From an uncultured Caryophanales bacterium (GTDB lineage: Bacteria; Bacillota_I; Bacilli_A; RFN20; CAG-826), in NCBI GenBank assembly GCA_946185585.1, contig CAMHJP010000003.1, forward strand, positions 1 to 53,496: DNA of 53,496 nucleotides, in the 5' to 3' direction. Every line of letters begins with the position of its first letter. Positions within the stretch are counted from its first letter, which is position 1. The translations under genes were made by a program, and so were the position numbers. Positions 4,596 through 8,876 of the stretch are shown here, piece after piece. Below the pieces are notes generated by a model. It was not told where the DNA came from. It ran no database searches and saw nothing but the letters and a program-made list of their open reading frames with translations.

Positions 4596-5520
4596 GCAGA
4601 AAATTATTTTAGATTGTGATCCTGGACACGATGACGCGATTGCCATCATGCTTGCTGGTTCTGCTCCTAGTTTAGAAATCTTAGGAATAACTGTTGAAGC
4701 AGGAAACCAGACATTAGAGAAGACAGGGAACAACACATTGAATATAGTTCAATATTTGGGTCTCGATGTTCCTGTTGCTTTAGGTTCTGGAAAACCACTA
4801 AAACGAAGCCCAATGACCTGTGCCGAAATTCATGGCGAAACAGGTTTAGATGGTTTTCCATTTTCCCCATTAAAAATCAAATATCACCAGCAAAACGCGG
4901 TTGAATTAATGAAATCTTTGTTAGATAAAAACGAAGATGTGATATTAGTTCCAACTGGTCCATTAACCAATATTGCTGAACTTTTAATCAAGCATCCAGA
5001 AGTGAAAAAATATATCAAATCAATTGTCCTCATGGGTGGATCAATTGGATTTGGTAATGTATCTCCTGCCGCAGAGTTTAATATTCTTTGTGACCCAGAA
5101 GCTGCAGATATTGTTTTTAATTCTGGATTAGATGTTTATATGCTTGGGCTTGATGTTACAAGAAAAGCTCTTGTCCTTCCTGATGTGATGGAAAGAATGT
5201 CAAAGATTGATAACAAAGCGGGTAGGCTCTTTATTGATTTAATGAAAGTTTTTAATGAGAACCAACTCAAAATCTTTGGCCATAGTGGAGCGCCTCTTCA
5301 TGATCCAGCAACAATCATTTCATTATTAAATCCAAATGTTTTCACTTTTAAGAAGATGAATGTTGTGATTGATGTCACTGGTGGTCCATCTTATGGAAGA
5401 ACAAACTGTGACCAATATGATTATTTACATCAACCACATAATGCTTATGTTGCAATTGACATAAATGTCAAAGAATACTGGAACGAAGTTGAGAAAGGTC
5501 TAAAACGTTACTCAAAATGA
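4588..5520 (+). CDS. Inosine-uridine preferring nucleoside hydrolase family protein
   Basis: ILDCDPGHDDAIAIMLA signature; true start ATG 4588 overlaps the rarA stop. The ORF-track extension to 4513 lies within rarA. Confidence 0.92.
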   Translation: MTKQKIILDCDPGHDDAIAIMLAGSAPSLEILGITVEAGNQTLEKTGNNTLNIVQYLGLDVPVALGSGKPLKRSPMTCAEIHGETGLDGFPFSPLKIKYHQQNAVELMKSLLDKNEDVILVPTGPLTNIAELLIKHPEVKKYIKSIVLMGGSIGFGNVSPAAEFNILCDPEAADIVFNSGLDVYMLGLDVTRKALVLPDVMERMSKIDNKAGRLFIDLMKVFNENQLKIFGHSGAPLHDPATIISLLNPNVFTFKKMNVVIDVTGGPSYGRTNCDQYDYLHQPHNAYVAIDINVKEYWNEVEKGLKRYSK

Positions 5521-6404
5521 ACACTATTTATGTCCTTGGATCATTAAATATGGATCTTGTGATTGAATCCGACAAGATTCCTACAAAAGGCGAAACTGTT
5601 CGTGGTGAAAATTTTTCAACCTGTCCTGGAGGAAAAGGATTAAATCAAGCTATCGCTGCTGCTAAACTTGGTGCCAAAGTAAAAATGCTTGGCGCCATTG
5701 GCTATGACTCGTTCGGTGAGAAAATGTTTAATGCGTTAAAGGAAAACAATGTTGATGTTTCTCATATTAAGATGGTTAAAGGTGTTTCTAGTGGAATCGC
5801 GATGATCCTTTTACACAATAAAGATAATCGAATCATTCTCGACTTGGGAGCCAATTTAAAATTAACAAAAAGTGATGTTGATAGTTTTCTTAAAGGAGCT
5901 AGTGCTGGCGATGTTTTCTTATCTCAATTAGAGAATAGTCTTGAACTTGTCGGTTATGCCCTAGAGGTCGCAAAACGTAAAAAAATGCGTACCGTAATTA
6001 ATCCTGCTCCATGTGATATTGGAATAAAAAAATATGCCAGATTTATCGATGTTATTACTCCAAATAGTGGAGAATTGCGTATGCTTCTAAAATACGGAAA
6101 ATACCAGCAAAAACCGGATAAATTAGGAATTTCCACAATTGTTGAAACTAGAGGAAAGGACGGTTATTGCTGTTATAAAGGAAAAGACACAATTTCTGAA
6201 AAAGCAGTCAAAGTAAAAGTGGTTGATACAACTGGTGCAGGCGATGCATTTAATGGTGCGTTATGCTACCAGCTTGCCCAAGGAAAAGAAATTAATAAGA
6301 CATCATTAAACTTTGCTTGTTTGGCTGCATCAATATCGACAACCAAACACGGAACAAGCGTTTCTTCTCCAACACTGGATGAGATAAGCAAATTCAAAAA
6401 ATAA
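5517..6404 (+). CDS. rbsK: Ribokinase (PfkB family)
   Basis: GSLNMDLVIESDKIPTKGETVRG, PGGKGLNQA, DTTGAGDAFNGAL; ATGA overlap with the preceding gene. Confidence 0.93.
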   Translation: MNTIYVLGSLNMDLVIESDKIPTKGETVRGENFSTCPGGKGLNQAIAAAKLGAKVKMLGAIGYDSFGEKMFNALKENNVDVSHIKMVKGVSSGIAMILLHNKDNRIILDLGANLKLTKSDVDSFLKGASAGDVFLSQLENSLELVGYALEVAKRKKMRTVINPAPCDIGIKKYARFIDVITPNSGELRMLLKYGKYQQKPDKLGISTIVETRGKDGYCCYKGKDTISEKAVKVKVVDTTGAGDAFNGALCYQLAQGKEINKTSLNFACLAASISTTKHGTSVSSPTLDEISKFKK

Positions 6405-6433: not shown

Positions 6434-6639
6434 TTAAATTCCCATTCAATTTAAGGTGAAATTTTTTCTTACAGTGTAAGAAGTTTTCTTTTTTGAAAAA
6501 TTGAGTGCAAATTTTTCTTTTAAAAACGGATTTAGTTAATGAGAGCGAAAAACTCTCAGGCAAAGAAAAGCCTTAAAAACTCGGAACGGGAACTCCTGAC
6601 TACATGCGTCATTCACGCAATAGAAAGGAGGCAACCGAA

Positions 6640-6723
6640 ATGAAAACTAATAAAGAAATCATCTATGGTTTCATGTTGGTAATTGTTGACCTTGTTTATT
6701 TGATATTGGAATTAATCCGATAA
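6640..6723 (+). CDS. 27-aa hydrophobic micro-peptide, candidate type I toxin (module 1)
   Basis: SD AAAGGAGG at 6624-6631; MKTNKEIIYGFMLVIVDLVYLILELIR*. Not in the ORF track because of length. Paralogous layout to 6900-6986. Confidence 0.7.
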   Translation: MKTNKEIIYGFMLVIVDLVYLILELIR

Positions 6724-6724
6724 A

Positions 6725-6783
6725 GAAAAAACGAGTCCTTGACTCATTGACATAAAGTAGTCTTGGAGGATCCCGTTCTTATG
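6725..6783 (-). ncRNA. Candidate antisense (antitoxin) RNA of module 1
   Basis: Minus-strand promoter TTGCAA(6817-6812)-16 nt-TGC-TATAAT(6795-6790); terminator GAGTC-aag-GACTC-g-TTTTTT ending about 6725. RNA overlaps the toxin mRNA 3'UTR. Confidence 0.6.
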
Positions 6784-6789
6784 TTTCTC

Positions 6790-6817
6790 ATTATAGCAAA
6801 GCTAAAAATCTTTGCAA
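6790..6817 (-). promoter_or_regulatory. Antisense promoter, module 1
   Basis: TTGCAA-16-TATAAT with extended -10 TGC. Confidence 0.7.
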
Positions 6818-6899
6818 TACGACAAAGACAAGTCGTTAAAACTCAGAACGAATACTTTCCTAGGGTAATTCAAAAAATTATTTGAAGGGAGGTGATACG

Positions 6900-6986
6900 A
6901 TGAAGCAATTGAAAGATTTAGAGTCACTCTTTATCTTAGTTGTGATCATCTTGTTTCTTCTTTTGCTCCTAAAAGTTGCAAAATAA
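6900..6986 (+). CDS. 28-aa hydrophobic micro-peptide, candidate type I toxin (module 2)
   Basis: SD GGGAGGTG just upstream; MKQLKDLESLFILVVIILFLLLLLKVAK*. Same flanking architecture as module 1. Confidence 0.72.
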   Translation: MKQLKDLESLFILVVIILFLLLLLKVAK

Positions 6987-6987
6987 A

Positions 6988-7041
6988 AAAAACAAATCCC
7001 TAGACTGACACTTTGACCGGTGTTGGAAGGATTCGTTCTTG
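6988..7041 (-). ncRNA. Candidate antisense (antitoxin) RNA of module 2
   Basis: Minus promoter TTGCAA(7075-7070)-16-TATAAT(7053-7048); the RNA ends in a structured segment followed by GTTTTTTTT on the minus strand. Confidence 0.58.
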
Positions 7042-7047
7042 TGTCTC

Positions 7048-7075
7048 ATTATAGCAAAGTTTTGTTACTTTGCAA
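7048..7075 (-). promoter_or_regulatory. Antisense promoter, module 2
   Basis: TTGCAA-16-TATAAT, same spacing and extended -10 as module 1. Confidence 0.68.
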
Positions 7076-7102
7076 CATGCCAAACTTAAAATGTAATCAT
7101 CA

Positions 7103-7193: not shown

Positions 7194-8876
7194 ATGATAC
7201 TTAAGAAAATGAATGGCGTTCAATTTAAAGAATTGATCGTCAGTGGAGCTAAAAATCTTAGAGCCCATTATCAAGAAGTAGACAATTTGAATGTCTTCCC
7301 GGTCCCAGATGGTGATACGGGTACAAATATGTGCCGCACAATCGAAGGCGGCGTTAGTAACATCATCAAAGAAGAAAGCAAATCCTTAAGTGATATTGCT
7401 AAAGTTCTTTCTAAAGGAATGTTACTCGGAGCTAGAGGTAACTCTGGTGTTATTCTTTCCCAAATCTATCGTGGTATTTGCCGTTCATTTGAAGGCAAAC
7501 AAGAAGTTGACGCTAAACAATTAGCCGAAGCTTATCGAGTTGGTGTAAAGCAAGCTTATGCTGCTGTTATTACACCGGTCGAAGGAACAATTCTGACCGT
7601 CTTTAGAGAAGCAACAGAATATGCTGCCAAGAAGATGACTAAGGAATCCACGATTAACGAATTCTTTGAACTTCACTTAAAACAAGCTTCTAAGTCATTA
7701 AAAATGACCAAAGAACTTCTTCCAGTATTAAAAGAAGCCGATGTCATTGACTCTGGTGGTGCTGGTTACGTCTATATCGTTAAAGGTATTGTTAAATACT
7801 TAGGCGGAGAAGTTATTGATGCTGAACTAGACTTAGGTAAGAAAGATGAAAAAGGTGAGGAAAAACCAGCGATTGATTTTTCTGCATTCTCTCGTGATGA
7901 TGAATTAACCTTTGGTTACTGCACAGAATTCATCTTACGTTTACAGAGTAAAAAAGTAAACGTTGATGAATTCGATGTTCAAACAATTATTGATATTTTA
8001 AATTCCAAAGAAATCTCTGGTGACTCGATCGTCGCCTTAAAAGACGATGACGTCGTCAAAGTTCACGTTCACACCAAAGATCCAGGTTTAGTTCTTCATC
8101 AGATGCGTCAATTTGGTGAATTCTTAACCACTAAAGTTGAAAACATGTCTCTTCAACATAATGAAAACATGACTGAAGAAGAAAAACTTGCTTCTCAAAA
8201 AAGAGAACACAAGAAATACGCTATTGTTGCTGTTGCTCAGGGCGAAGGAATCTGTTCTCAATTCGAAGCGTTAGGTGTTGATGTCATTGTCAAAGGAAAC
8301 CAAACAATGAACCCATCTACCGAAGACTTCTTAAAAGCATTCAAACAATTAGATGCTGAAAACATTATTGTTTTCCCAAATAACAAAAACATTATTATGG
8401 CTGCTAAACAAGCAGCTGGATTATATAAAGCTGCGAAAGTGAAAGTTGCTGCAAGTAACTTCATCCCACAATGTTACTCAGCTCTAACAATGTTAGATTT
8501 CTCTAGTGATGATCTTGAACTCATCATGGGTAACTTTAACGCTGCTTTAAGAAACGTTGTTTCTGGATCAATTACAACTGCTATTCGTAGCACCAGACTC
8601 AACGGAGTTAACATCCGCAAAGGTGAAAATCTTTGTATTGTTGATGGCAAAGTTGTTGCCTCAACAATTAATAAGTACCATGTTGTTGGTGATCTTTTAA
8701 GAAAGATCCCTGACATCCAAGACAAACAACTTCTCACAGTTTTCTTTGGTAAGGATTGCACTGAAGCCGAACGAAAGAAAAACATGGATTGGGTGAAACA
8801 AAAATACCCACATCTTGAAGTTGGTTGTGTTGATGGTGGACAAGCCGTTTATAAGTTCTTATTAGCTATTGAATAA
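7194..8876 (+). CDS. fakA: DAK2 domain-containing protein, fatty acid kinase catalytic subunit-like (YloV/FakA family)
   Basis: LNVFPVPDGDTGTNMCRTIEGG, GARGNSGVILSQI, DSGGAGYVYI; SD aaggag. Confidence 0.9.
   Translation: MILKKMNGVQFKELIVSGAKNLRAHYQEVDNLNVFPVPDGDTGTNMCRTIEGGVSNIIKEESKSLSDIAKVLSKGMLLGARGNSGVILSQIYRGICRSFEGKQEVDAKQLAEAYRVGVKQAYAAVITPVEGTILTVFREATEYAAKKMTKESTINEFFELHLKQASKSLKMTKELLPVLKEADVIDSGGAGYVYIVKGIVKYLGGEVIDAELDLGKKDEKGEEKPAIDFSAFSRDDELTFGYCTEFILRLQSKKVNVDEFDVQTIIDILNSKEISGDSIVALKDDDVVKVHVHTKDPGLVLHQMRQFGEFLTTKVENMSLQHNENMTEEEKLASQKREHKKYAIVAVAQGEGICSQFEALGVDVIVKGNQTMNPSTEDFLKAFKQLDAENIIVFPNNKNIIMAAKQAAGLYKAAKVKVAASNFIPQCYSALTMLDFSSDDLELIMGNFNAALRNVVSGSITTAIRSTRLNGVNIRKGENLCIVDGKVVASTINKYHVVGDLLRKIPDIQDKQLLTVFFGKDCTEAERKKNMDWVKQKYPHLEVGCVDGGQAVYKFLLAIE

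Follow-up and report, generated by a model that had tools for sequence, protein, structure and literature searches.

We report a family of small modules from gut Bacilli in which the 5′ and 3′ untranslated regions (UTRs) of a predicted peptide mRNA are joined by a long-range helix whose arms covary, and in which the 5′ arm carries an anti-Shine-Dalgarno (anti-SD) sequence that can pair either with the Shine-Dalgarno (SD) or with a copy of it in the 3′UTR. On balance, we regard it as fairly probable that each module is a type I toxin-antitoxin-like unit built around a three-strand RNA switch, in which fold-back of the mRNA would open the SD and an antisense RNA would close it.

The window, a stretch of 53,496 nucleotides from a contig of a reduced-genome Bacilli MAG, carries at positions 6541-7080 two tandem modules, each read from the sequence as containing a tiny hydrophobic open reading frame (ORF). 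They are flanked by a ribokinase-like gene (5517-6404) and a gene beginning at 7194, with flanking gene names assigned by reading the sequences. On the + strand each module comprises, in order, a small hairpin at the predicted mRNA start, a conserved UUAAAACUC stretch, the 5′ arm, the SD, an ORF of 27 or 28 codons and the 3′ arm; on the − strand, a TTGCAA-16-TATAAT promoter with a TGn element lies directly past the 3′ arm. The antisense terminator was located by a scan in module 1 and as a folded stem with a U run in module 2. The features are:

6559-6572, + strand: module 1 hairpin near the predicted mRNA 5′ end, GGC-AAAGAAAA-GCC, with conserved UUAAAAACUCG after it (from the alignment)
6584-6603, + strand: module 1 5′UTR arm of the long-range helix, with the anti-SD CUCCU inside (6593-6597)
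6626-6631, + strand: module 1 SD, AGGAGG
6640-6723, + strand: module 1 hydrophobic 27-aa peptide MKTNKEIIYGFMLVIVDLVYLILELIR, a putative membrane toxin
6757-6778, + strand: module 1 3′UTR arm, partner of 6584-6603, with the SD copy UUGGAGGAU inside
6728-6783, − strand: module 1 predicted antisense RNA, starting near 6783, with a terminator hairpin (6748-6730) and T run; ends predicted
6790-6817, − strand: module 1 antisense promoter TTGCAA-16-TATAAT, with TGn ahead of the -10
6821-6834, + strand: module 2 hairpin GAC-AAAGACAA-GUC, near the predicted mRNA 5′ end (from the alignment)
6845-6860, + strand: module 2 5′UTR arm of the long-range helix, with the anti-SD CUUUCC inside (6855-6860)
6887-6892, + strand: module 2 SD, GGGAGG
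6900-6986, + strand: module 2 hydrophobic 28-aa peptide MKQLKDLESLFILVVIILFLLLLLKVAK
7025-7039, + strand: module 2 3′UTR arm, partner of 6845-6860, with the SD copy GGAAGG inside
6987-7041, − strand: module 2 predicted antisense RNA; its terminator is the stem AACGAAUCC / GGGAUUUGUU plus a U run; ends predicted
7048-7075, − strand: module 2 antisense promoter TTGCAA-16-TATAAT, with TGn ahead of the -10

The 5′ hairpin and the UUAAAACUC stretch are present in all aligned modules. Just 5′ of module 1 (6541-6567), a GAGAG/CTCTC hairpin is followed by CAGGCAAA, resembling the 3′ end of a glycine riboswitch; this segment has no Rfam match. Possibly an additional 5′ stem, the hairpin is kept in the first modules of genomes G001 and G003.

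The two 5′-3′ complementarities put forward in the sequence-only reading proved exact in letters and coordinates. In module 1, GAACGGGAACTCCTGACTAC (6584-6603) pairs with GTAGTCTTGGAGGATCCCGTTC (6757-6778) over 18 pairs at -30.1 kcal/mol; in module 2, AGAACGAATACTTTCC (6845-6860) pairs with GGAAGGATTCGTTCT (7025-7039) over 14-17 pairs at -20.8 kcal/mol. Among 20,000 random segment pairs taken from the window at similar spacing, 14 reach -20.8 kcal/mol and none reaches -30.1, and the best 5′UTR × 3′UTR duplex is matched by 2 of 2000 dinucleotide shuffles for module 1 and by 14 of 2000 for module 2. Both helices appear in the minimum free energy (MFE) folds of their mRNAs, with z-scores of -6.5 (module 1) and -3.7 (module 2). 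Pairing between the arms in the window is thus real and stronger than chance; two modules by themselves prove little, and the proof of pairing comes from homologues.

DNA, pattern and model searches recovered 89 modules of the same design, mostly from 57 matching genomes among the 279 genomes of the order that were searched. A covariance model of the leader (R1) matches 57/279 genomes and 14/56 genera of the order, all in the window's own family of gut Bacilli; with only 3 pairs it models sequence for the most part, and its role was confined to searching, with no weight given to it as structural evidence. Multiple units per genome are common, often in tandem, the maximum in the present set being seven, and where neighborhoods were inspected the units adjoin ordinary chromosomal genes (ribokinase/YloV-like, trmU-like, rimP/nusA-like and acyltransferase-like, named from reading the sequences). 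True modules also occur in two rumen Bacilli MAGs, an Erysipelotrichaceae MAG (L129) and a Bacilli MAG from goat reticulum (L175); these are the exceptions among the matches listed from loose IUPAC scans of genome and viral contigs, nearly all of which are chance matches. A strict pattern found no module in viral contigs, and a class-wide sample yielded merely weak leader-like matches outside the window's family.

Several related units depart from this design. Class-level matches in another family have only the 5′ hairpin leader in common with the modules; on inspection by eye, neither the antisense promoter nor the arms were seen there. Three of these units (L403:1500-1650, L404:1500-1650 and L405, on the reverse strand) share a very similar leader, GUAGACAAAACAAAGUCUUUAAAACUC; after it come a different ORF, some 27 codons long (MKFLYELFKTMADVLIICNVNISDPKC in L403), and an ordinary terminator, and no antisense promoter was seen in them. 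As an mRNA element, the 5′ hairpin leader may be more widespread. Leader and ORF units at L041, L378 and L384 have a similar A-rich sequence (AAATTAGATAA..AAATCAAG) in place of the 3′ arm and antisense promoter, and in genome G003 the unit stops at a contig end, with the matching other half at the end of another contig, an arrangement that insertion of a repeated element close to the stop codon might produce. A unit of genome G251 (L390:209) has a shortened 3′UTR and an arm without most of its complement, its own duplex reaching only -12.8 kcal/mol; it is a possible natural loss-of-switch variant.

Covariation was assessed without any alignment: every 5′ arm was paired in turn with its own 3′ arm and with those of all other modules, and the duplex energies were compared. 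If the arms drifted independently, own and swapped partners should give equal energies. Across 72 non-redundant modules, own pairs average -26.1 kcal/mol and swapped pairs -17.8 (z = -18.9, with 0/5000 permutations as good), a difference assessed, like all covariation statistics given here, by partner-swap permutation and shuffles, not R-scape, and without a phylogenetic null. The same test on 33 modules gives -26.6 against -17.0 kcal/mol (z = -13.9). The upstream flank (z = -15.7), the anti-SD part (-11.9) and the downstream flank (-8.7) each covary separately, from which it follows that the helix runs through the anti-SD. In a structure-free MAFFT alignment of 33 modules, 86% of cells pair and two-sided changes occur at 11 of 14 pairs; the covariation score is 0.455, compared with 0.26 after shuffling and 0.09-0.19 when the partner is slid, a slide of one column already bringing it below 0.2. 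Negative controls are flat (left arm × downstream DNA, z = -1.2; ribosome-binding site and ORF start × 3′UTR, z = +1.4), and pairing persists in arms with very different letters, such as GAGCCAAA/UUUGGCUC, GAAGGAAG/CUUCCUUC and GAACUGAU/AUCAGUUC. The compensatory differences with retained complementarity that had been noticed between the two modules of the window thus extend across the family, and the covariation expected among homologues is present, since all three sub-segments show it independently. Inverted repeats 150-170 nt apart can exchange sequence, and gene conversion or replication-template switching might keep the arms alike without any function. We consider such an origin extremely unlikely: a bulge of one or two bases recurs at the same place of the 5′ strand and, together with G-U pairs, persists in most modules, and the arms are embedded in anti-SD and antisense stems that covary in their own right.

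The anti-SD lies within the 5′ arm and the SD copy within the 3′ arm. Anti-SD and SD covary (own vs swapped z = -9.2) and are 84% paired on the alignment. In the 52 modules with a CCUC anti-SD, base 5 of the anti-SD pairs with the SD in 52/52 and with the 3′UTR copy in 47/52, the latter count being somewhat favored because the 3′UTR site is the best of local candidates. The resulting triplets of anti-SD, SD and SD copy include CCUCAC/GUGAGG/GUGAGG, CCUCGC/GCGAGG/GCGAGG, CCUCGU/ACGAGG/ACGAGG and CCUCAA/AUGAGG/AUGAGG. Because the anti-SD covaries both with the SD and with the 3′UTR copy, it has two mutually exclusive partners. This double covariation is left unexplained by a model of the txpA/RatA type, in which the antisense RNA does no more than form a duplex for RNase III to degrade, with the 5′-3′ helix protecting the mRNA ends and having no part in translation control. 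The convergent 3′ overlap is like that of Gram-positive type I systems (PMC4147584, PMC6562991) and the conserved 5′ hairpin adjoins the predicted mRNA start, both in keeping with decay and end protection; we nevertheless judge decay as the sole mode of action to be quite improbable.

The predicted antisense RNA is about 55-65 nt long and convergent, lying over the 3′UTR. Its -10 element is exactly TATAAT in 84/87 modules and is accompanied by TGn in 72/87, at a near-fixed distance from the arm; module selection tolerated one -10 mismatch, so that the exactness is informative and the presence partly selected. The closing stem and the terminator stem of the antisense RNA covary (z = -8.3 and -5.8), with flat controls. 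The antisense is an exact complement of the 3′UTR and resembles its own 5′UTR (mean similarity 0.76) more than those of others (0.64). This would make it a competitor of the 5′ arm for the 3′UTR and bears out the near-identity of antisense and 5′UTR and the competition that had been suggested for the window. In genomes with multiple units, the own partner is strictly best in 52/62 cases (about 18 expected), which suggests that paralogous units within one genome use mostly separate pairing codes. Covariation is also seen between the antisense segment and the SD (z = -6.9, own vs swapped), as would be expected if the antisense closed the SD directly in trans through its own anti-SD copy, the SD copy in the 3′UTR serving merely as template. 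That arrangement seems very unlikely to us: it would offer about 6 bp at the SD against a perfect complement of the whole antisense in the 3′UTR, and it leaves the covarying flanks outside the anti-SD unexplained.

Folding models indicate the direction in which the switch would work. Across 33 modules, blocking the 3′UTR raises the probability of anti-SD:SD pairing from 0.30 to 0.84, and SD accessibility is 0.26 with the 5′-3′ helix enforced vs 0.12 with the 3′UTR blocked, being higher with the helix in 61/70 modules. Openness of the SD in the folded-back state (0.263) equals that of synonymous ORF shuffles (0.264), and this test found no selected ORF element hiding the SD in that state. Even under the enforced helix, varying ORF segments keep the SD about 74% paired, and the models show no full "on" state. 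The outer 8 bp of the helix can coexist with anti-SD:SD pairing in many modules, and a 5′-3′ contact would therefore be compatible with a closed SD. The full enforced helix lies on average 2.5 kcal/mol above the MFE, energies for the long-range helix being rough.

The sequence-only reading had invoked hok, in which fold-back keeps the full-length mRNA inactive, and that expectation is not supported here. A lock of the hok or AapA kind, released by trimming of the 3′ end, would fit the high stability of the folded-back mRNAs (the z-scores of -6.5 and -3.7) and an SD that mostly stays paired, in module 1 with the ORF, and hok and AapA3 use their 5′-3′ interaction in this manner (PMC6733600, PMC8167048). 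However, since the anti-SD is part of the 5′ arm and shows covariation with the SD and the 3′ arm alike, loss of the 3′UTR by trimming or by antisense binding frees it to close the SD in the folding models, where the lock would have it open. Trimming would also delete the antisense target. Fold-back that hides the SD would moreover predict a selected partner for the freed SD, whereas synonymous ORF codons leave accessibility unchanged and no selected downstream lock was found. We thus consider a lock of this kind unlikely, and prefer opening by fold-back and closing by antisense because blocking the 3′UTR favors anti-SD:SD pairing and lowers SD accessibility, because synonymous shuffles do not alter that accessibility, and because trimming would take the antisense target with it.

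The preferred switch would operate as follows. In a nascent or 3′-shortened mRNA, the leader anti-SD would be held on the SD just downstream, giving a closed state. In the full-length mRNA, the 3′UTR arm would capture the anti-SD together with bases flanking it on both sides, leaving the SD more accessible. The antisense RNA, as a mimic of the 5′ arm, would then occupy the 3′UTR, sending the anti-SD back onto the SD and stopping translation, and the antisense-3′UTR duplex would probably also be cleaved by RNase III.

The encoded peptides, 25-29 aa long, carry a single hydrophobic stretch in 87/87 modules, hydrophobicity being one of the selection criteria. Differences between ORFs are concentrated at the third codon position (493/320/895 for positions 1, 2 and 3). 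Pfam and NCBIfam gave no credible match: among 25 peptides there was one weak NCBIfam match to the Hok family (E 0.76) and none in Pfam, and no Fst match in either library. Rfam returned nothing at gathering scores and chance-level matches below them. The peptides are putative membrane toxins.

A recurring design in which letters change and pairing is kept suggests an RNA on/off switch for a toxin-like peptide. Long-range 5′-3′ interactions in toxin mRNAs have so far been probed experimentally in a few cases; here, covariation preserves mutually exclusive pairings across some 90 natural variants from about 14 genera, which allows the switch to be read off the sequence and its polarity to be put to the test with compensatory mutations. 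For the family as a whole, we give even chances to the full proposal that the peptide mRNAs are translated only if their own 3′UTR folds back to remove the anti-SD, that the antisense serves as a 5′UTR mimic and not as a blocker, and that most paralogues have a code of their own. With such a code, as many as seven paralogues in one genome would be largely insulated from each other, and the suggested antitoxin principle is an antisense that imitates its target's own leader, mirroring hok/Sok.

Searches of Rfam, Pfam and NCBIfam assigned the modules to none of the bsrG/SR4, hok/Sok, AapA/IsoA or par/Fst systems, with each of which they share part of their logic. In hok/Sok of plasmid R1, the mok initiation region is reportedly contested by Sok and the mRNA 3′ end, going by the title of a 1994 report by Thisted and colleagues. 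The modules likewise combine a 5′-3′ fold-back of a toxin-like mRNA with competition between an antisense and one mRNA end, but as a mirror image: here the 3′ end would be the target over which antisense and 5′ end compete, and the predicted polarity is the opposite. The leader alignment holds no conserved mok-like upstream frame, and the antisense lies over the 3′UTR and not the 5′ region.

In AapA/IsoA of Helicobacter pylori, a long-distance interaction masks the SD of AapA3 and 3′ processing activates the mRNA (PMC6733600). Anti-SD hairpins, which form early in AapA (PMC6733600), and a long-distance 5′-3′ interaction are common to both systems; unlike the AapA partner, which masks the SD, the 3′ partner here has a copy of the SD and would mask the anti-SD. 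The par/Fst systems of Enterococcus and other Firmicutes resemble the modules in their convergent toxin and antitoxin RNAs (RNAI and RNAII), SD stem-loop, 5′-end helix and coexisting paralogues, which in par do not cross-react (PMC7472228). Direct repeats there let RNAII pair with the RNAI 5′ region (PMC7472228), whereas the arms here are inverted repeats, so that the antisense resembles the 5′ region, and the peptides have no Fst family match.

By analogy, the closest known system in logic is bsrG/SR4 of the Bacillus subtilis SP-beta prophage, where an SD stem of 4 bp grows to 8 bp once the antisense has bound the 3′ end (PMC4147584, PMC6562991, PMC7430163). Both systems have an mRNA for a small hydrophobic peptide and a convergent antisense, here a predicted one, across its 3′ end. 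In bsrG/SR4 distant antisense binding strengthens an SD-sequestering stem, and for the modules folding predicts a similar effect, with the rise in anti-SD:SD pairing from 0.30 to 0.84. Searches of Rfam, Pfam and NCBIfam revealed no sequence relation. The modules differ in their shorter antisense (a predicted 55-65 nt or so, against 180 nt for SR4) and in the mimicry of the 5′ arm by the antisense and the three-way anti-SD/SD/SD-copy code, kept over many genera. Judged from their sequences, the modules would form a variant of type I toxin-antitoxin-like systems, with predicted transcripts and a putative toxin.
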